A program made the position numbers and the translations under genes. This document shows, one piece after another, positions 31,813 to 39,897 of a stretch of DNA of 64,000 nt (positions are counted from its first letter, which is position 1; every line of letters begins with the position of its first letter). Source of the DNA: Mycolicibacterium cosmeticum (GTDB taxonomy: Bacteria; Actinomycetota; Actinomycetes; Mycobacteriales; Mycobacteriaceae); contig NZ_CCBB010000003.1 in assembly GCF_000613185.1 (NCBI RefSeq), positions 1,550,001-1,614,000 on the forward strand. Reading direction: 5' to 3'. The notes below the pieces were generated by a model, which was not told the origin of the DNA, ran no database searches, and saw nothing but the letters and a program-made list of their open reading frames with translations.

Positions 31813-33471
31813 TTACGGCGGGAAGACCTGCTTGATGCTGCCGTCGGGATTGACCTGCATGAAACCGGTACCCGGTGCCGTCGAATGGACGGCGAGCTCC
31901 AATCCGCCCCCTGTACCAGCCCCCGTCGCTTCGCTCGCCCCGGTGCCTTCCACGATCAGATACACCCCGCTGCCGTCCGGGGCGCCGAGTTTCTGGGGCG
32001 CGTCGGCCAGCGTGGCGGCCACCCCCGGCACGTTGATGGCGCCGAGGTCGGCGAGCACGTCGAACGAACTGGTGCTGGTCGCCGAACCCCACTCCTGCCA
32101 GCCGTCGCCGCGGTACATGAAGCTGTGCTCGACGTGCGAGTTGGTCGGATCGACCCGGTCCAGGATCGCGTAGGTGGGATAGACCACCAACTGGAAGCCC
32201 ATGGTGTCGGCGAATTTCGCGCGGATGGTGTCCAGCAGCGCGGCCAACCCGTCGGCGGTCTGCAGTTGCGACGGCTTCTCGGCGGCCTGGGTCGCGGTGG
32301 GCACGGTGGGCGAATACGTCGGGGAGGCAGTCGGTTTGGGGCTTGCTGCGGTGGAGGTGCGCGACCCGGCGGTGGGTGCGGCGACCTGCTGACCGGAATC
32401 CTGCGACCGCGCGTTGAGCACGAGCACGACGGCGACCGCGGCGACACCGAGCATGCCCAGCAGACCGATCGGGATGAGGATCGCCGGTCCGCGCCACCAC
32501 GGCTGCGTGGTGGGGGCGGGTTGCCAGGCCGGTGCCGGCGCGGCGGGCCACTGCTGGTGGGACATCGGCGGGGTGGCCGGATAGGGGACCGGGGGCGGTG
32601 GCGGTGGCCAACTGCCCGCGGCGGTCGGTTGATCGTGAGCGGCGGGCGCCGGTGCGGCGGGTGCGGTCAAGGCGGCGCGGGCGGCCGCGGCCAGATCCCT
32701 GGTGGTGGCATAGCGGTGGTCGGGGTTCTTGGCCATCCCGGTGGCGACGACCTGATCCATTCCGGGCGGCACCCCGGGCCGCAGCGTCGACGGGCGCGGC
32801 GGCGGCAGGCTCAGATGGCCGGCGACCTGGCGTTCCATGCTGTCGCCGGGAAACGGCTGCACCCCGGTCAGGCATTCGTGCAGCACACAGGTCAGCGCGT
32901 AGATGTCGGCGCGGGCGTCCGAGCTGTCGGTGGACAGCCGCTCCGGGGCCATATAGGCCAGCGTGCCGATCGTCGAGCCGGTGCTGGTGAGCTTGGTGGC
33001 CCCGGCCGTGCGGGCGATGCCGAAATCGATCAGGTAGGCGAAGTCCTCGTCGGTCACCAGGATGTTCGACGGTTTCACGTCGCGGTGCACCAGCCCGACC
33101 CGGTGCGCGGCGTTGAGCGCCGCGGCGATCTGCTCGACGATGGCAACGGCGCGCTGGGGCGACAGCGGGCCGTCCTGCAGCAGCTCGTGCACGGTCTTGC
33201 CCTCGATCAACCGCATGGTGACGTACAGCCGGCCGTCGATCTCGCCGAAGTCGTGGATCGGGACGATGTGCGGCTCGTCCAGGCCGGCCGCCATCTGGGC
33301 CTCACGGCGGAACCGCCGCTGGTAGGTGTCGTCGTCGGCGAGGTTGGCCGGCAGCACCTTCAGCGCGACCACCCGGTTCATGGTGGTGTCGAAGGCCTGC
33401 CACACCTCGCCCATGCCGCCCCGGCCCAGCACCCTGACCAGGCGGTACCGGCCGAACGGCGTTCCATCCAC
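31813..33471 (-). CDS. transmembrane Ser/Thr protein kinase with unusual ectodomain
   Basis: A 552-residue Hanks-type kinase. Residues 1-270 are the kinase domain: Gly loop GRGGMG, ATP lysine K38, catalytic loop HRDVKPSN (129-136), DFG at 149-151, activation loop ending MAPERL. A Pro/Ala-rich juxtamembrane stretch (270-328) leads to one TM helix (about 329-352). Outside is a Ser/Thr/Pro linker and a roughly 130-residue domain with VVYPTYAILDRVDP and YRGDGWQEWG that is not made of PASTA repeats. The M. tuberculosis counterpart is unclear, so no symbol is given. The start is ATG at 33471. A TetR gene follows upstream on the same strand. Confidence 0.92.
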   Translation of the reverse strand: MDGTPFGRYRLVRVLGRGGMGEVWQAFDTTMNRVVALKVLPANLADDDTYQRRFRREAQMAAGLDEPHIVPIHDFGEIDGRLYVTMRLIEGKTVHELLQDGPLSPQRAVAIVEQIAAALNAAHRVGLVHRDVKPSNILVTDEDFAYLIDFGIARTAGATKLTSTGSTIGTLAYMAPERLSTDSSDARADIYALTCVLHECLTGVQPFPGDSMERQVAGHLSLPPPRPSTLRPGVPPGMDQVVATGMAKNPDHRYATTRDLAAAARAALTAPAAPAPAAHDQPTAAGSWPPPPPPVPYPATPPMSHQQWPAAPAPAWQPAPTTQPWWRGPAILIPIGLLGMLGVAAVAVVLVLNARSQDSGQQVAAPTAGSRTSTAASPKPTASPTYSPTVPTATQAAEKPSQLQTADGLAALLDTIRAKFADTMGFQLVVYPTYAILDRVDPTNSHVEHSFMYRGDGWQEWGSATSTSSFDVLADLGAINVPGVAATLADAPQKLGAPDGSGVYLIVEGTGASEATGAGTGGGLELAVHSTAPGTGFMQVNPDGSIKQVFPP

Positions 33472-33514: not shown

Positions 33515-34093
33515 TCAGGGTGCGGTGTCTTCGCCTTTGGTGCTGTAGCCCTTGGTCATCCAGTACACGGCCCGGTCCAGGGTGGGCAGGATGTCGGTGA
33601 TGGCGATCTCGCCGGCGGTGTACCGGCCGATCAACCCGTGCACCAGGCTCAGCAGCACGGCATCCAGGTCGGCGATGAAGTCGGCGTCGACCCCGGCGAG
33701 CAACTCCATGCCCGCGGGGACCACGACGTCCAGGCCCCGGCGCAGCAGCCGCTGGCCACCCGGTGCCGAGCGGGCCCGGAAGAAGGCCCGCAGCATTCCC
33801 GGATGCTTCTCCCACGGCTCGAAAATGGTTCGCAGCAGGTGCATTTGCGCTTCGTAGAGGGACTCGTCGGGGGCGCGGCGGTGCGGCGTGATGCCGGCGT
33901 AGCGGTGTTTCTCCAGCCAGGCCTCCAGCGCGGCCAGGATGAGCTCGTCGCGGGTGGGGTAGCGCTTGTAGATGGTGGCCAGCGATGTCTTGGCCCGCCG
34001 CGCCACCTCGCGCAACTGGACGGCGTCGTAGCCGTCGGTTTCCAGCATGGCCGCCACGGCGCCCAGGATCGGATCTAGTCCGGGATCGTCCAC
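33515..34093 (-). CDS. TetR-family regulator of the mycofactocin-SDR operon
   Basis: A 192-residue TetR protein: N-terminal HTH (AVQLREVARRAKTSLATIYKRYPTRDELILAALEAW) followed by an all-helical ligand domain. The start GTG 34093 was chosen because AAGGGGG lies 5 bases upstream; the open frame extends far into the neighbouring SDR but is not protein-like there. It is divergent from the SDR operon, and two nearly identical 13-bp palindromes occupy the 81-base gap, so it likely represses itself and the operon until a catabolic ligand binds (inference). Confidence 0.9.
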   Translation of the reverse strand: MDDPGLDPILGAVAAMLETDGYDAVQLREVARRAKTSLATIYKRYPTRDELILAALEAWLEKHRYAGITPHRRAPDESLYEAQMHLLRTIFEPWEKHPGMLRAFFRARSAPGGQRLLRRGLDVVVPAGMELLAGVDADFIADLDAVLLSLVHGLIGRYTAGEIAITDILPTLDRAVYWMTKGYSTKGEDTAP

Positions 34094-34116
34094 GAGAACC
34101 CCCTTGCCGCCACTGA

Positions 34117-34152
34117 GTAACCAGGTTACCGTACCGGGTGTAACACGGTTAC
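34117..34152. promoter_or_regulatory. two copies of a 13-bp operator GTAAC-NN-GGTTAC type
   Basis: GTAACCAGGTTAC (34117-34129) is a perfect palindrome; GTAACACGGTTAC (34140-34152) differs at two central bases. They are spaced 23 bp start to start, about two helical turns, between the divergent TetR and SDR starts. The layout is that of a double TetR operator overlapping both promoters. Confidence 0.7.
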
Positions 34153-34174
34153 TGGGCAATGAAGCGAGGGATCG

Positions 34175-35005
34175 ATGGGCACTCTGGACGGCAAGGTCGC
34201 GTTCATCACGGGGGTGGCACGCGGCCAAGGGCGAAGCCACGCGGTGCGGCTGGCCGCCGACGGTGCCGACATCATCGGCGTGGACATCTGCGCCGACATC
34301 CCCTCCAACGGCTACCCGATGGCCACCCGGTCCGAGCTGGACGAGACGGTGGCACTGGTTGAGGCGCAGGGCGCCAAGATGATCGGTGCCGTCGCCGATG
34401 TGCGCGACTTCCACGCGCTTAAAGCCGCGCTCGACGACGGGGTGGCCCACTTCGGGCGGCTCGACATCGTCTGCGCCAACGCGGGGATCGCCGCCATGGC
34501 GTTCCGTGAACTGACCGACGACGAGGACCTGCAGATGTGGTCCGATGTCGTCGGCGTCAACCTGATCGGCTCCTACCACACCGCCAAGGTGGCCATTCCA
34601 CACCTGATCGCCGGCGGGCGTGGCGGGTCCATCGTCTTCACCAGCTCCACCGCCGGGCTCAAAGGCTTCGGCGGGATGCAGGGCGGTGGCCTCGGTTATG
34701 CGGCATCCAAGCACGGCATCGTCGGCTTGATGCGTACCTTGGCCAATGCGCTTGCGCCACACAGTATCCGGGTCAACACCGTGCACCCGACGGCGGTCAA
34801 CACCATGATGGCCGTCAACCCGGCCATGACGGAGTTCCTGGAGAACTATCCCGGTGGCGGTCCACACCTGCAGAATCCGATGCCCGTCTCGCTGCTGGAG
34901 CCCGAAGACATCAGCGCGGCCATCGCCTACCTGGTGTCCGATCAGGCGAAGTACGTCACCGGGATCACCTTCCCGGTCGACGCCGGCTTCTGCAACAAGC
35001 TGTGA
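34175..35005 (+). CDS. mycofactocin-coupled SDR family oxidoreductase (1)
   Basis: A 276-residue short-chain dehydrogenase with the cofactor motif TGVARGQGRSHAVRLA, NAG as ANAGIA, catalytic Ser in SSTAGLKG and Tyr-Lys in GYAASKHG. After the second beta strand it carries the extra segment VDICADIPSNGYPMATRSEL, a loop insertion typical of SDRs that work with the redox peptide mycofactocin, where bound NAD is not freely exchanged (TIGR03971-type). It probably oxidises an alcohol in a catabolic route. The ATG at 34175 follows the double operator. Its stop overlaps the start of the second SDR. Confidence 0.92.
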   Translation: MGTLDGKVAFITGVARGQGRSHAVRLAADGADIIGVDICADIPSNGYPMATRSELDETVALVEAQGAKMIGAVADVRDFHALKAALDDGVAHFGRLDIVCANAGIAAMAFRELTDDEDLQMWSDVVGVNLIGSYHTAKVAIPHLIAGGRGGSIVFTSSTAGLKGFGGMQGGGLGYAASKHGIVGLMRTLANALAPHSIRVNTVHPTAVNTMMAVNPAMTEFLENYPGGGPHLQNPMPVSLLEPEDISAAIAYLVSDQAKYVTGITFPVDAGFCNKL

Positions 35006-35799
35006 GAGCCGCCGGTAAGCGCGTCCTGATCACCGGCGCGGCCCGCGGTATGGGGCGTAGCCACGCGATCAGGCTCGCCGAAGAGGGCGCGGACGTGATT
35101 CTCGTCGACATCTGCGCATCCCTGCCCGATATCGAGTACCCGCTGGCCACTCCCGACGAATTGGCCGAAACCGCCCGGCTGGTCGAACAACTCGGCCGCC
35201 GCGCGGTCAGCCACATCGTCGATGTGCGCGACGCCGACGCGCTGGCCGCCGCGGTGGCCGACGGTGTCACCCGGTTGGGCGGGCTGGACGCCGCGGTCGC
35301 CAATGCCGGCGTGCTGACCGCCGGAACCTGGGACACCACCACCGCACAACAGTGGCGCACCGTCGTCGATGTCAACCTGATCGGCACCTGGAACACCTGC
35401 GCCGCGGCGCTGCCGCACCTGGTCGACCACGGCGGGAGCCTGGTGAACATCAGCTCGGCCGCCGGGCTCAAGGGCACCCCGCTGCACACCCCGTACACCG
35501 CGACCAAACACGGCGTCGTCGGACTGAGCCGGGCGCTGGCCAATGAGCTGGCCGCCGTGAACGTCCGGGTCAACACCGTGCACCCGACCGGGGTGGCCAC
35601 CGGGATGCGACCGGATTCGCTGCACCACCTGCTGGCCGAGCAGCGCCCCGATCTGGCACCGCTGTTCGGCAACGCCCTGCCGATCGTGATGGCCGAGGCC
35701 GTCGACATCAGCAATGCAGTGCTGTATCTGGTGTCCGACGAGTCGCGGTATGTCACCGGCATGGAGTTCAAGGTCGATGCGGGGGTGACGCTGCGATGA
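35002..35799 (+). CDS. mycofactocin-coupled SDR family oxidoreductase (2)
   Basis: A 265-residue paralogue of the preceding gene: TGAARGMGRSHAIRLA, the insertion DICASLPDIEYPLATPDEL, SSAAGLKG and catalytic PYTATKHG. The GTG start at 35002 overlaps the previous stop by 4 bases, and its own stop overlaps the next start, so the four genes are translationally coupled. Two such enzymes in a row may act on successive or stereoisomeric alcohols (inference). The N-terminus is shorter than the first copy by about six residues. Confidence 0.9.
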   Translation: MRAAGKRVLITGAARGMGRSHAIRLAEEGADVILVDICASLPDIEYPLATPDELAETARLVEQLGRRAVSHIVDVRDADALAAAVADGVTRLGGLDAAVANAGVLTAGTWDTTTAQQWRTVVDVNLIGTWNTCAAALPHLVDHGGSLVNISSAAGLKGTPLHTPYTATKHGVVGLSRALANELAAVNVRVNTVHPTGVATGMRPDSLHHLLAEQRPDLAPLFGNALPIVMAEAVDISNAVLYLVSDESRYVTGMEFKVDAGVTLR

Positions 35800-36578
35800 C
35801 CGAACAGGGCCGGCGTGCCTTCGCCGATGTGATGACGTTTCCCGCGCCCGAGGAAACCAGCCCGGCCACCGAGGGCCTGCTGGACTACGTCTATGCCCAG
35901 GTGTGGCAGCGCCCGGAGCTCACCAGACGGGACCGGCGGTTCGTCACGCTGGCGTGCGTGGCGGCGGCCGACGCCGAGGGTCCGCTGCGTGATCACGTGT
36001 ACGCCGCACTCAACAGCGGCGACGTCACGATCACCGAAATGCAAGAAACTGTCCTGCATTTCGCGGTGTACGGGGGCTGGCCCAAGGCCTCGCGATTCAA
36101 CATGGTGGTGGACGAACAATGGGAGCGCATCCACCGCGAGCGCGGTGAGACGGTGCCGCCGCCGCAACCGTTGCTGCCGTTGGGTACCCCGAGTGACCCG
36201 GAAGCCCGGCTGGCGGTGGGCGAGCAGGCCTTCCGCGAGATCAACTGTCTGCCGTTCGCGCCGACCCGGGACAATCCGTACCAGGGGGCCGGCATTCTGA
36301 ACTTCGTCTTCGGCGAGATGTGGCTGCGGCCCGGGCTGGGCATGAAGGAACGCAGGCTGGTGACGGTGGCCTGTGTGGCGTGGCAGGACGCGCCGTACCC
36401 GATCCTCAGCCACGTGTACGCCGCGCTCAAGAGCGGTGACGTGTCGTTCGACGAAATGGACGAGCTGGCACTGCACTTCGCTGCCTACTACGGTTGGCCC
36501 AAGGCCTCGCACCTGAACCAGGTGATCGGCGAGCAGAAACAACGGGTGCTCGACGAGTGGGCGGCCGAAGCCTCATGA
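35796..36578 (+). CDS. tandem carboxymuconolactone decarboxylase-like protein
   Basis: A 260-residue protein made of two similar CMD-fold halves. The first contains RRDRRFVTLACVAAAD, RDHVYAALNSGDV and HFAVYGGWPKASRFN; the second contains KERRLVTVACVAWQD, LSHVYAALKSGDV and HFAAYYGWPKASHLN. Each half keeps the histidine but neither has the CxxC pair of AhpD, so it is probably not a peroxidase; decarboxylase/lactonase-type chemistry is possible. It starts at ATG 35796 overlapping the SDR stop and is coupled to the aldehyde dehydrogenase that follows. Confidence 0.9.
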   Translation: MTEQGRRAFADVMTFPAPEETSPATEGLLDYVYAQVWQRPELTRRDRRFVTLACVAAADAEGPLRDHVYAALNSGDVTITEMQETVLHFAVYGGWPKASRFNMVVDEQWERIHRERGETVPPPQPLLPLGTPSDPEARLAVGEQAFREINCLPFAPTRDNPYQGAGILNFVFGEMWLRPGLGMKERRLVTVACVAWQDAPYPILSHVYAALKSGDVSFDEMDELALHFAAYYGWPKASHLNQVIGEQKQRVLDEWAAEAS

Positions 36579-38014
36579 CCGTGCCGGCGGGCCTGCTGAT
36601 CGGTGGTGACCGGGTGCTCTCGGACACGCTGTACGAGCACGTGTTCCCGGCGACCGGCCGGCCGAACGCGACGGTGGCGCTGGCCGGTGCGGCCGAGATC
36701 GACCGGGCCGTCGGCAATTCCTGGGATGCGCACCGCGAATGGGTGTCACTGACCGTGGACCGGCGTCGCGACCTGATGATCGACCTGGCCGATCTGCTGC
36801 ACGAACACCTCGAGGAGATGGCCCTGCTCAACGTGCAGGACTATGCCGTGCCGATCTCGTACGCCGGCACGGCGGTGCTGTTGGAGCGGTTCCTGCGGCA
36901 CTTCGCCGGCTATGCCGACAAACCGCACGGCCTCAGCACGCCGGTCAACGGATGCTTCGACGTCAACCTCGTGGAGCGAGAGCCCTACGGTGTGGTGGGC
37001 GTCATCGCCCCGTGGAACGGTGCGCTGGTGGTGGCCGCATCCTGTGTGGCCCCGGCACTGGCCGCCGGGAATGCGGTGGTGTTCAAACCATCCGAGCTCG
37101 CCCCGCTGGCCGCACTGCGGTTCGGCGAGCTATGCGTGCAGGCCGGGTTGCCGCCCGGGCTGGTGAACGTGCTGCCCGCCGGCCCGGCCGGCGGGGACGC
37201 GCTGGTCCGCCATCCCGGGGTACGCAAGATTCATTTCACCGGCGGCGGCACGACCGCTCGCGCGGTGCTGCAGTCGGCGGCGGTCAACCTCACCCCGGTG
37301 GTGACCGAATTGGGCGGCAAATCGGCCAATATCGTGTTCGCCGACGCCGATCTCGATGCGGCCGCGCAGATGTCGGCGCATCAGGGTCCGCTGATGCAGG
37401 CCGGGCAGAGCTGCGCGTGTGCCAGCCGGATCCTGGTGCACGACTCGGTCTACGACGAGTTCGTCGAGAAGTTCCTCGCCGTGGTGACGGCCGCCCGCAT
37501 CGGGGACCCGTTCGACCCGGCGGTGCGGATGGGCCCGGTCGTCAGTCAGCACGCACTGACCCGGATCCTCACCGCCATCGACACCGCCGTCGCCGAACCA
37601 GCAGGCGAGTTGCTGGTCGGTGGCCGGCGCCTGGGCGGGGCACTCGCGGACGGCTTCTTCCTGGAGCCCACGGTGTTCGGCGACGTCGACAACGCGTCGC
37701 AACTGGCCCGCACCGAGACCTTCGGGCCGGTCGTCTCGATCATCCGGTTCGGCACCGACGAGCAGGCGGTGGCGTTGGCCAACGACACGCCCTACGGCCT
37801 GAATGCGTTCGTGCACACCAGGGATCTGCAGCGGGCGCATGTGACGGCCCGCCGGCTGGAGTCCGGCTCGGTCTGGATCAACACCTTCAGCGAGATCGCC
37901 CCGCAAGGCCCCTATGGCGGCTACAAGCAGAGCGGGTTCGGGCGCACCGGCGGGGTGGACGGCCTGCACGAATTCCTGCAGACCAAGAACATCCGGATCG
38001 CCATGCCGCGCTGA
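36575..38014 (+). CDS. aldehyde dehydrogenase
   Basis: A 479-residue NAD(P)-dependent aldehyde dehydrogenase. Catalytic glutamate lies in VVTELGGKSANIV and the nucleophilic cysteine in AGQSCACASRI (about residue 281); the PWNGALVVAA segment and C-terminal PYGGYKQSGFGRTGG are standard. The start ATG 36575 overlaps the previous stop (ATGA) and gives the usual length; the frame extends 27 codons upstream without typical sequence. Last gene of the operon; it would oxidise the aldehyde made by the upstream SDRs to an acid. Confidence 0.95.
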   Translation: MTVPAGLLIGGDRVLSDTLYEHVFPATGRPNATVALAGAAEIDRAVGNSWDAHREWVSLTVDRRRDLMIDLADLLHEHLEEMALLNVQDYAVPISYAGTAVLLERFLRHFAGYADKPHGLSTPVNGCFDVNLVEREPYGVVGVIAPWNGALVVAASCVAPALAAGNAVVFKPSELAPLAALRFGELCVQAGLPPGLVNVLPAGPAGGDALVRHPGVRKIHFTGGGTTARAVLQSAAVNLTPVVTELGGKSANIVFADADLDAAAQMSAHQGPLMQAGQSCACASRILVHDSVYDEFVEKFLAVVTAARIGDPFDPAVRMGPVVSQHALTRILTAIDTAVAEPAGELLVGGRRLGGALADGFFLEPTVFGDVDNASQLARTETFGPVVSIIRFGTDEQAVALANDTPYGLNAFVHTRDLQRAHVTARRLESGSVWINTFSEIAPQGPYGGYKQSGFGRTGGVDGLHEFLQTKNIRIAMPR

Positions 38015-38046
38015 GCCCGCCGCTGTGGCCCCGGCCGAGGGACGGG

Positions 38047-38331
38047 GTGTTCGGGGCGGCGTGCGGGCGCGACAGTCCGTATCGGTCCTACACCTGGGAA
38101 ACGCTGTCGCTGTTGACGCGCAACGCACAAGCGCGGCTGGACGCGCTGGGCATGCCCACGCATGTGGCCGAAACCCGCTCGCGCATCGCGCTGGCCGCGT
38201 TCCAGGGATTCATCATCGAATACTTCACCGCCGACGAGCCGTCCGTCGTGGACGAGACCTTCGCCCGCTTCGTCGACGAGTTCCTGCTCGCGCCTTTCGG
38301 CCCGTCAGCGCCCGACCGTGGACGTGGGTGA
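38047..38331 (+). pseudogene. TetR-like C-terminal fragment (HTH missing)
   Basis: The frame encodes about 94 residues, GRDSPYRSYTWETL, ARLDALGMPTHVAETRSRI, ALAAFQGFIIEYFTAD, DETFARFVDEFLLAPF, a pattern seen at the end of TetR ligand domains. No HTH is encoded upstream; the region before it is the ALDH gene. A GTG start at 38047 could still make a short protein. It lies in the 431-base gap between ALDH and catalase; the remaining 38332-38445 stretch holds only the presumed catalase promoter and RBS. Confidence 0.5.
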
Positions 38332-38445: not shown

Positions 38446-39897
38446 ATGACCGAAAAGTATGCGACCACCGATGCCGGTGCCCCGGTTCCGAGCTTCGAAC
38501 ACTCACTGACCGTCGGACCGGATGGGCCGATCCTGCTGCAGGACCATTATCTGATCGAGCAGATGGCCAACTTCAACCGCGAGCGCATCCCGGAACGCCA
38601 ACCGCACGCCAAGGGCGGCGGCGCGTTCGGCTCGTTCGAGGTGACCCACGACGTCAGCGCGTTCACCCGGGCGGCGTTTCTGCAGCCCGGCACCAAGACC
38701 GACATGGTGGCCCGGTTCTCGACGGTGGCCGGTGAGCGTGGCAGCCCGGACACCTGGCGCGACCCGCGCGGTTTTGCGCTGAAGTTCTACACCTCCGAGG
38801 GCAACTTCGACATGGTCGGCAACAACACCCCGGTGTTCTTCGTCCGGGACCCGATGAAATTCCAGAACTTCATCCGGTCCCAGAAACGCCTGCAGTCGAG
38901 CAACCTTCGCGACCATCACATGCAGTGGGACTTCTGGACCTTGTCGCCGGAGTCCGCGCACCAGGTCACCTGGCTGATGGGGGACCGCGGCATCCCCAGA
39001 ACGTGGCGGCACATGAACGGCTACTCCAGCCACACCTACAGTTGGCTCAACGCCGCCGGCGAGTTGTTCTGGGTCAAGTACCACTTCAAGACCGACCAGG
39101 GCATCGAGTTCCTCACCCAGGAGGAGGGCGACGAGATGGCCGGCGTCGACGGGGACGCCCATCAACGTGACCTTTTCACCTCGATCGAGGGTGGCAACTT
39201 CCCGAGCTGGACCCTGCACGTCCAGATCATGCCGTTCGAGGATGCGAAGACCTACCGGTTCAATCCCTTCGACCTGACCAAGGTCTGGCCGCACTCCGAC
39301 TACCCGCTCCACGAGGTGGGTCGAATGACGCTGAACCGCAACGTCACCGACTACCACGCCGAGATCGAGCAGGCCGCCTTCGAGCCGAACAACCTGGTTC
39401 CCGGCACCGGACTGAGCCCGGACAAGATGCTATTGGCCCGCGGTTTCTCCTACAGCGACGCACACCGACACCGGCTCGGCGTGAACTACAAGCAGATCCC
39501 GGTCAACACGCCGAAGGTGGAGGTACACAGCTACTCCAAGGATGGCGCGATGCGGATCCGCAACGTCACGGATCCGGTGTATACGCCGAACTCGATGGGT
39601 GGCCCCGGCGCCGACCCGGCACGCGCCGCGGAGGTGCACTGGGCCGCCGACGGGGGCATGGTCCGCACCGCCTACGCACTACGCGAAGAGGACGACGACT
39701 GGGGCCAGGCCGGCACGCTGGTGCGCGAGGTGCTCGATGACGACGCCCGGGAGCGCTTGGCGCACAACATCATCGGGCACGTCTCCAAGGGCGTCAAGGA
39801 GCCGGTGCTGTCACGGGTAGTCGAGTACTGGCGCAACGTCGACCCCGATCTCGGCAAAAAGGTCGAGGAGGGTGTGCGCGGCGGGCCTACCGGTTAG
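38446..39897 (+). CDS. katA: monofunctional haem catalase
   Basis: Decomposes H2O2. A 483-residue small-subunit (clade 3-like) catalase, distinct from the mycobacterial catalase-peroxidase KatG. Catalytic His54 lies in [17 protein letters not shown], Asn127 in [11 protein letters not shown], and the haem-ligand tyrosine in [16 protein letters not shown] (near residue 338). The ATG 38446 was chosen over an upstream in-frame ATG because of the purine-rich AGAGAGGGAAG before it and the family-typical N-terminus. The stop overlaps the opposing AKR stop. Confidence 0.96.

Follow-up and report, generated by a model that had tools for sequence, protein, structure and literature searches.

A mycofactocin-type dehydrogenase operon of Mycolicibacterium cosmeticum and its proposed link to a CYP150A-type P450 module

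The operon and the linked P450 module

An operon of Mycolicibacterium cosmeticum was analyzed within a 64,000-nucleotide stretch of its genome (RefSeq assembly GCF_000613185.1, contig NZ_CCBB010000003.1, positions 1,550,001 to 1,614,000 of the forward strand), which is referred to as the window. The operon (window 34175-38014) encodes two short-chain dehydrogenases/reductases (SDR1 and SDR2), a tandem carboxymuconolactone-decarboxylase-like (CMD) protein, and an aldehyde dehydrogenase (ALDH), and a TetR-family regulator is encoded divergently. The gene calls confirmed the four overlapping genes and the divergent TetR described in an earlier note on this DNA, the three 4-base overlaps being GTGA, ATGA, and ATGA. 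Judging from related genomes, the operon appears to make up roughly half of a more extensive conserved system that also comprises a cytochrome P450, a ferredoxin (Fdx), a third SDR (SDR3), and a second TetR (TetR2). We consider it probable that the operon carries out the later oxidations, those after hydroxylation, in a catabolic pathway started by a CYP150A-type P450 together with a CXXHXXC ferredoxin. This reading draws on the hidden Markov model (HMM) scores and the cofactor loop of the SDRs, the mycofactocin genes of the genome, the adjacency and co-occurrence of the P450, the single clusters and operator pairs in other genera, the match to CYP150A6, the ferredoxin motif, a Sphingobium cluster, and the presence of mftC in all 29 family-level genomes with CMD. 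The earlier note had proposed an operon leading from an alcohol to an acid, which seems right in kind, but the relatives suggest that it is not a self-contained pathway.

The conservation of the operon was determined in 58 loci that a CMD query retrieved from named genomes (59 loci when the window is included); because the loci were selected by CMD, its presence in them is no evidence. Gene-clustering family counts include paralogues, so the operon genes were counted by tblastn at distances of up to 5 kb from CMD, with some contigs ending inside the operon. SDR1 (at least 70% identity) was found near CMD in 53 of the 58 loci, SDR2 (70%) and TetR (48%) in 52 each, and ALDH (60%) in only 39, making the latter the least constant part of the operon; all four partners were present in 35 loci. 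This recurrence is not due to chance. When considering 198 Mycobacterium genomes, a close CMD relative (at least 71% identity) was present in 77, the matches in G038 and G149 being partial, which bears out the accessory nature attributed to the operon by the earlier note. Relatives of 55% identity or less (e.g., G011, G040, G102, G125, G140, and G146) and a partial 61% match in G060 were counted as absent.

The comparison returned the operon in relatives and additionally revealed, beside it, the P450 module that had been missing from the original description. The recurrent families in the 59 loci included the P450 (40 loci), TetR2 (32), SDR3 (31), and a short ferredoxin, which was seen in 15 loci by gene calling and, by tblastn, in 24 of the 40 P450-bearing loci. 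These four were located on either side of the operon and on either strand, and most other frequent neighbours were situated at nearly fixed distances resembling local synteny. A P450 with at least 70% identity to the copy in the M. cosmeticum genome was found in 39 of the 58 relative loci; restricted to the 45 loci exceeding 18 kb, the count was 33. The 31 SDR3 relatives were 83-97% identical to the M. cosmeticum SDR3. The module is intact in this genome (C3:173418-176676, locus L042), with the P450 and the ferredoxin on one strand and TetR2 and SDR3 on the other.

Papers are cited here by PubMed Central (PMC) number, and statements on them refer to the portions of each text that were covered. 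The closest solved structure to the linked P450 is CYP150A6 of M. marinum (632.6 bits over 422 residues), the next solved P450 reaching 185 bits, and its haem-cysteine motif reads FGRGIHTCAG; by similarity only, it is named a CYP150A-type enzyme. The neighbouring ferredoxin has the motif CEAHALC, of the CXXHXXC type, a motif shared with Fdx8, the partner of M. marinum CYP150A5 (PMC6237146); the word "dehydrogenase" is absent from the main text of that paper. Across the 198 Mycobacterium genomes, 67 had both CMD and the P450 (at least 71% identity), 10 CMD only, 21 the P450 only, and 100 neither (Fisher p = 3e-23, kinship ignored), and 53 of the 67 pairs lay within 15 kb. A P450 match at E 1e-120 occurred in 160 of the 198 genomes, with looser relatives at 62-69% identity among the matches listed; the linked clade is set apart at 71% or more, with the next best match at 69%. 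Looser relatives are common, and it is this specific clade that is associated with CMD.

Outside Mycobacterium, 13 loci were obtained, nine of them with a P450 of at least 66% identity (L112, L113, L114, L115, L119, L121, L122, L123, and L124). In Aldersonia (L112, the same as L050) the order was TetR | CMD-ALDH-Fdx-P450-SDR3, and in Rhodococcus triatomae (L113, the same as L067) it was TetR | P450-SDR1-CMD-ALDH-Fdx-P450-SDR3.

The gap between the TetR and SDR1 genes contains a pair of 13-bp GTAAC-N3-GTTAC palindromes, GTAACCAGGTTAC (window 34117..34129) and GTAACACGGTTAC (34140..34152), which are 23 bp apart and are predicted to be TetR operators. Divergent TetR-SDR1 pairs could be extracted from 46 of the 59 loci, and the degenerate pattern RTAAC-N3-GTTAY occurred twice in 41 of these intergenic regions and once in the other five. 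Both sites are the sole exact matches in the 6.46 Mb genome, at the operon promoter, in agreement with the TetR control proposed in the earlier note and with a regulator that looks local. A reversed-pattern control likewise gave two matches, so the argument lies in the pairing and conservation of the sites and not in their rarity. In M. wolinskyi (L092 and L127, the same locus fetched twice), no SDR1, SDR2, or TetR accompanied CMD in the fetched stretch, and an operator pair is retained 26-51 bp before CMD. Of the 13 loci from other genera, six had the TetR, with operator pairs in L112, L113, L122, and L124. The last two, which are two genomes of one genus, bear the pair between TetR and Fdx-P450-SDR3.

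A single operator site also stood 14-20 bp before another P450 gene (about 400 aa) in three loci (L071:13704-14906, L073:14371-15579, and L079:15145-16347; PF00067 was detected in the L071 copy). This second P450 is apparently a further regulon member in some mycobacteria.

Mycofactocin-type dehydrogenases and mycofactocin genes

Both SDRs of the operon, which the earlier note had classed as mycofactocin-type, scored above the 300-bit cut-off of the TIGR03971 model. SDR1 (window 34175..35005, plus strand, 276 aa) reached 364.2 bits and SDR2 (35002..35799, plus strand, 265 aa, GTG start) 343.2 bits, while SDR3 of the P450 module reached 399.4 bits. In an alignment with four classical Sphingobium SDRs, SDR1 and SDR2 had an insertion of 12 additional residues in the loop on the adenosine side of the nicotinamide adenine dinucleotide (NAD) site, the range over SDR1, SDR2, and SDR3 being 12-13. 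The YxxxK motif of SDR1 is located at residues 175-179. The best solved relatives were 3sx2 for SDR1 (289.5 bits), 3t7c and 3uve for SDR2 (235 bits each), and 3UVE for SDR3 (485.5 bits). Above-cut-off HMM scores, the NAD loop, and SDR motifs are shared with the carveol-dehydrogenase-type enzymes of the TIGR03971 family, i.e., those of R. erythropolis, M. avium (3UVE and 3T7C), and M. paratuberculosis (3SX2). To our knowledge, the actinobacterial TIGR03971 SDRs are mostly without known substrates. According to the literature, these enzymes bury their NAD, as seen from the loop and nine NAD-bound structures (PMC5264612), and they occur solely alongside mycofactocin genes, with 26 members in M. 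avium (PMC3023750). The role demonstrated for mycofactocin is in oxidizing primary alcohols, ethanol among them (PMC6529628). The portions of the TIGR03971 literature covered here treat single enzymes or families, and the present case differs in that three paralogues are part of a single conserved system linked to a P450.

The M. cosmeticum genome bears at least 12 TIGR03971 genes above the cut-off (150 of 189 candidates scored) and two mftC genes. In the main mycofactocin cluster (L039), mftC is accompanied by mftD (718.2 bits) and an mftB relative, and from gene order and appearance we take other neighbours to be mftR, mftE, mftF, and mftG. A second set, composed of an mftA candidate, mftB (109 bits), mftC, and mftD (718.5 bits), was located at L040:8311-11049 (G000:C3 ~1094310-1097050); its products are 83% (MftC), 73% (MftD), and 68% (MftB) identical to those of the main cluster, and nothing resembling mftE or mftF was seen beside it by eye within 18 kb. 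Candidate mftA peptides ending in IDGMCGVY, presumably the mftA C-terminal ending, were found upstream of both mftB genes. A few other genomes also had a second mftC copy.

Among 301 genomes at the family level, mftC was present in all 29 with CMD and in 212 of the 272 others (Fisher p = 0.002, kinship ignored); CMD was called here at E 1e-60, 10 of the 29 had it only at 46-56% identity, and the mftC match of G216 was weak (4.6e-102). Since 241 of the 301 genomes have mftC anyway, this co-occurrence is weakly informative. A phylogenetic profile of mycofactocin dependence within Mycobacterium was set aside, given that 191 of the 198 genomes have mftC. The distribution of mftC agrees with a dependence of the operon on mycofactocin and does not establish it.

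Two further loci of this genome concern the same enzyme family. The tandem SDR pair at G000:C3:1904579-1906197 (L038) was considered as an operon paralogue and rejected, as no CMD or ALDH family member was called in 16 kb; its neighbours, by reading the sequences, were a flavin-monooxygenase-like gene and Mce-type genes. One member of this pair (L038:6571-7374, gene 5; G000:C3 ~1904.6 kb) scored 304.8 bits against TIGR03971 with most of the NAD-loop insertion missing, and it adjoins a second member bearing the loop. At L044:6335-8844 (G000:C1 ~928.3-930.8 kb), a TIGR03971 SDR has as neighbours a CXXHXXC ferredoxin and another P450-like gene, both assigned by eye; the pairing of a P450 with a mycofactocin-type SDR may be a general theme.

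A sphingomonad counterpart, the proposed pathway, and its alternatives

Relatives of CMD (E 1e-30) were found in only three of 72,556 plasmid records, all from sphingomonads, and plasmid spread of CMD was set aside on this basis. Close relatives of the P450 (E 1e-90) were likewise found in three records, one from Mycobacterium branderi and two being the same sphingomonad plasmids. In plasmid pKN1 of Sphingobium yanoikuyae (L128:6442-15816), genes for an ALDH, a CMD protein, several SDRs, and a P450 are clustered in about 10 kb, together with a TetR gene; the P450, ALDH, and CMD are 46%, 43%, and 39% identical to the actinobacterial proteins, respectively. In contrast to the actinobacterial system, its four SDRs are classical (137-183 bits against TIGR03971) and lack the NAD loop, and the cluster has additional 3-hydroxyisobutyrate-dehydrogenase-like and DapB-like genes. 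By sequence, the pKN1 cluster appears to be an analogous counterpart without mycofactocin-type SDRs. In a Novosphingobium plasmid, CMD is located far from the place of the best P450 match, in a cluster composed again of an ALDH, CMD, two SDRs, and a 3-hydroxyisobutyrate-dehydrogenase-like gene. The stretch from Sphingomonas paeninsulae had ALDH and CMD relatives and no P450 match.

In the proposed pathway, the P450 would hydroxylate a hydrophobic, probably terpenoid-like or alicyclic substrate. As the operon seems to be half of a P450-linked system, its alcohol most likely arises from this hydroxylation rather than from uptake. From what is known of the family, SDR3, SDR1, and SDR2 would oxidize the alcohol or alcohols with NAD kept bound and pass the electrons to mycofactocin, the ALDH would oxidize an aldehyde to the acid, and the tandem CMD protein may decarboxylate or rearrange the resulting intermediate. 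The local TetR would repress the operon through the two adjacent palindromes until a pathway compound releases it. Gene content, HMM membership, the loop, the operator pair, and the linkage are seen in the sequences, and the mycofactocin dependence of the operon and the CMD step are inferred. As for the substrate, we prefer a terpenoid-like compound to aromatic hydrocarbons, though only as a lead. CYP150A5 with Fdx8 yields 4-hydroxy-beta-ionone, an allylic secondary alcohol (PMC6237146), and carveol, which is also one, is the substrate of a characterized Rhodococcus SDR of the TIGR03971 family (PMC3023750). Against a terpenoid, nuclear magnetic resonance (NMR) experiments with two M. avium SDRs found that 3PXX bound carveol weakly and 3T7C did not (PMC5264612), which is why the idea stays a lead; 3T7C ranks among the two best solved matches to SDR2, and 3UVE, the closest to SDR3, was outside the pair tested.

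A more specific chemistry can be put forward tentatively, and we regard it as unlikely: a mycofactocin-powered oxidative demethylation of isoprenoids, in which a methyl (or allylic) carbon would be hydroxylated by CYP150A and converted to an acid by SDR3 and ALDH, SDR1 and SDR2 would oxidize a neighbouring hydroxyl to give a beta-keto (or vinylogous) acid, and CMD would remove CO2, with sphingomonads following the same pathway by means of free-NAD SDRs. If so, the redox cofactor of one pathway would have been exchanged in nature between mycofactocin and NAD.

Several observations weigh against the P450-linked pathway. The operon and the P450 module are 1.4 Mb apart on the same contig of the M. 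cosmeticum genome, and the exact-match genome search gave no site for the operon TetR at the module, which has its own TetR2. The P450 clade is absent from 10 of the 77 CMD genomes, and in 21 others the P450 occurs with no close CMD; furthermore, the co-occurrence statistics ignore phylogeny and CMD served to select the loci. Among the loci from other genera, four of the 13 had no such P450 (L116, only 10 kb long, L117, L118, at 5.3 kb, and L120), and two of the six with TetR had no such operator (L114 and L115). ALDH was missing near CMD in 19 of the 58 loci and SDR2 in six, contig ends included, so the order of two SDRs followed by ALDH given in the earlier note is too simple, the more so with three TIGR03971 SDRs in the system. 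Additionally, the near-universal mftC means that its co-occurrence says little inside the genus. The operon could instead be self-contained and serve an environmental alcohol, with the P450 as a frequent but functionally separate neighbour; its integrity without a nearby P450 in this genome, the CMD genomes devoid of the clade, and the confinement of the operator to the operon would fit. We consider this rather improbable because the P450 adjacency is repeated in differing orders and strands, single clusters occur in Aldersonia and Rhodococcus, the operator pair faces a P450 operon in L122 and L124, and Sphingobium has a P450-ALDH-CMD-SDR cluster.

The same gene set might act on a polycyclic aromatic or other xenobiotic hydrocarbon, the operon clearing dihydrodiols or hydroxy-metabolites, which would differ from the preferred pathway in the substrate only. 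Sphingomonads and mycobacteria share aromatic hydrocarbon metabolism, a point in its favour. A role for CYP150 in degrading pyrene has also been put forward for mycobacteria without nid dioxygenases (PMC10301208). Nevertheless, this substrate seems doubtful, as the spin shifts reported for screened aromatic compounds, in the data covered, were only low, and the ALDH would fit an alkyl or allylic alcohol better. Moreover, the nine families present in at least 15 of the 59 loci are the genes of the operon and of the P450 module (a count restricted to frequent families, rarer neighbours being unannotated), and they include neither a ring-cleavage enzyme nor a core biosynthetic gene. The latter result also bears on a biosynthetic role in secondary-metabolite tailoring, which could be argued from CYP150 genes counted inside predicted mycobacterial biosynthetic clusters (PMC9820752); the combination of TetR, SDR, ALDH, and CMD without a synthase would be typical of catabolism, and we find such a role very improbable. 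As another alternative, NAD(H) could be an ordinary, exchangeable cofactor of these SDRs, which might act reductively, the TIGR03971 match then reflecting ancestry only. The classical SDRs of Sphingobium suggest that the chemistry may not itself need mycofactocin, and gene 5 of L038 is a family member lacking most of the loop. However, SDR1, SDR2, and SDR3 possess the loop with which nine solved relatives bury their NAD (PMC5264612), and mftC accompanies CMD in each of the 29 family-level genomes bearing the latter, so that ordinary NAD(H) use is decidedly unlikely.

The P450-linked system, as proposed, ties three TIGR03971 SDRs to one P450 that may make their alcohol, and the substrate question of mycofactocin SDRs becomes directly testable. 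The predicted operator offers a handle for inducer screens, and the ordinary-SDR cluster of Sphingobium provides a comparison. Each part comes from a known family, and the literature searched yielded neither the combination nor the predicted operator nor the ordinary-SDR counterpart. The cluster was not described in the titles and abstract openings of the PMC literature on mycofactocin, CYP150(A), and carveol dehydrogenase, a scope in which full texts could hold it and which excludes subscription papers.

Gene features and surroundings of the operon in the window

The TetR gene (33515..34093, minus strand, GTG start) encodes 192 aa with matches to PF00440 (38.8 bits) and PF17925 (TetR_C_20, 83.7 bits); its match to the KstR cholesterol-regulator model NF033703 was weak (39.4 bits against a cut-off of 280). 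The CMD protein (35796..36578, plus strand, 260 aa) matched PF02627 over two stretches (72.3 bits), and its halves share 49% identity over 113 aa, which marks it as a fused pair. It shares the family PF02627 with the 4-carboxymuconolactone decarboxylase PcaC but differs in its tandem domain and in falling below the PcaC model TIGR02425 (85.8 against 155.7 bits), and it was not filed as PcaC. Five solved relatives were matched (the best being 4g9q at 85.8 bits), none of which gave a function. The protein is 97% identical to a named M. cosmeticum protein, and a protein from Mycolicibacterium sp. J2 matches it with 100% identity. The ALDH (36575..38014, plus strand, 479 aa; PF00171, 477.9 bits) has the motifs GQSCACAS at 277 and ELGGK at 245, which we take to be catalytic. 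Its substrate is not assignable: among the matches listed (25 of 42), no NCBIfam cut-off was reached, with BADH the best (392.4 against 668.6 bits), and assignment through equivalog models or the PDB was rejected since the matches were only generic.

The operon is flanked by genes encoding a Ser/Thr protein kinase (window 31813-33471) and a catalase (38446-39897). From the M. tuberculosis gene order, we assume that these two genes and the operon interrupt a backbone running from recG to pyruvate carboxylase. Directly 3' of the ALDH gene, a C-terminal remnant of a TetR gene is located at window 38045-38331. Mycolicibacterium sp. J2 (L048) bears about 3.56 kb extra at this place, containing a complete TetR (202 aa) and a gene for an EmbC-type arabinosyltransferase (PF04602 and PF14896), which suggests that the strain of the window underwent a deletion 3' of the ALDH gene.

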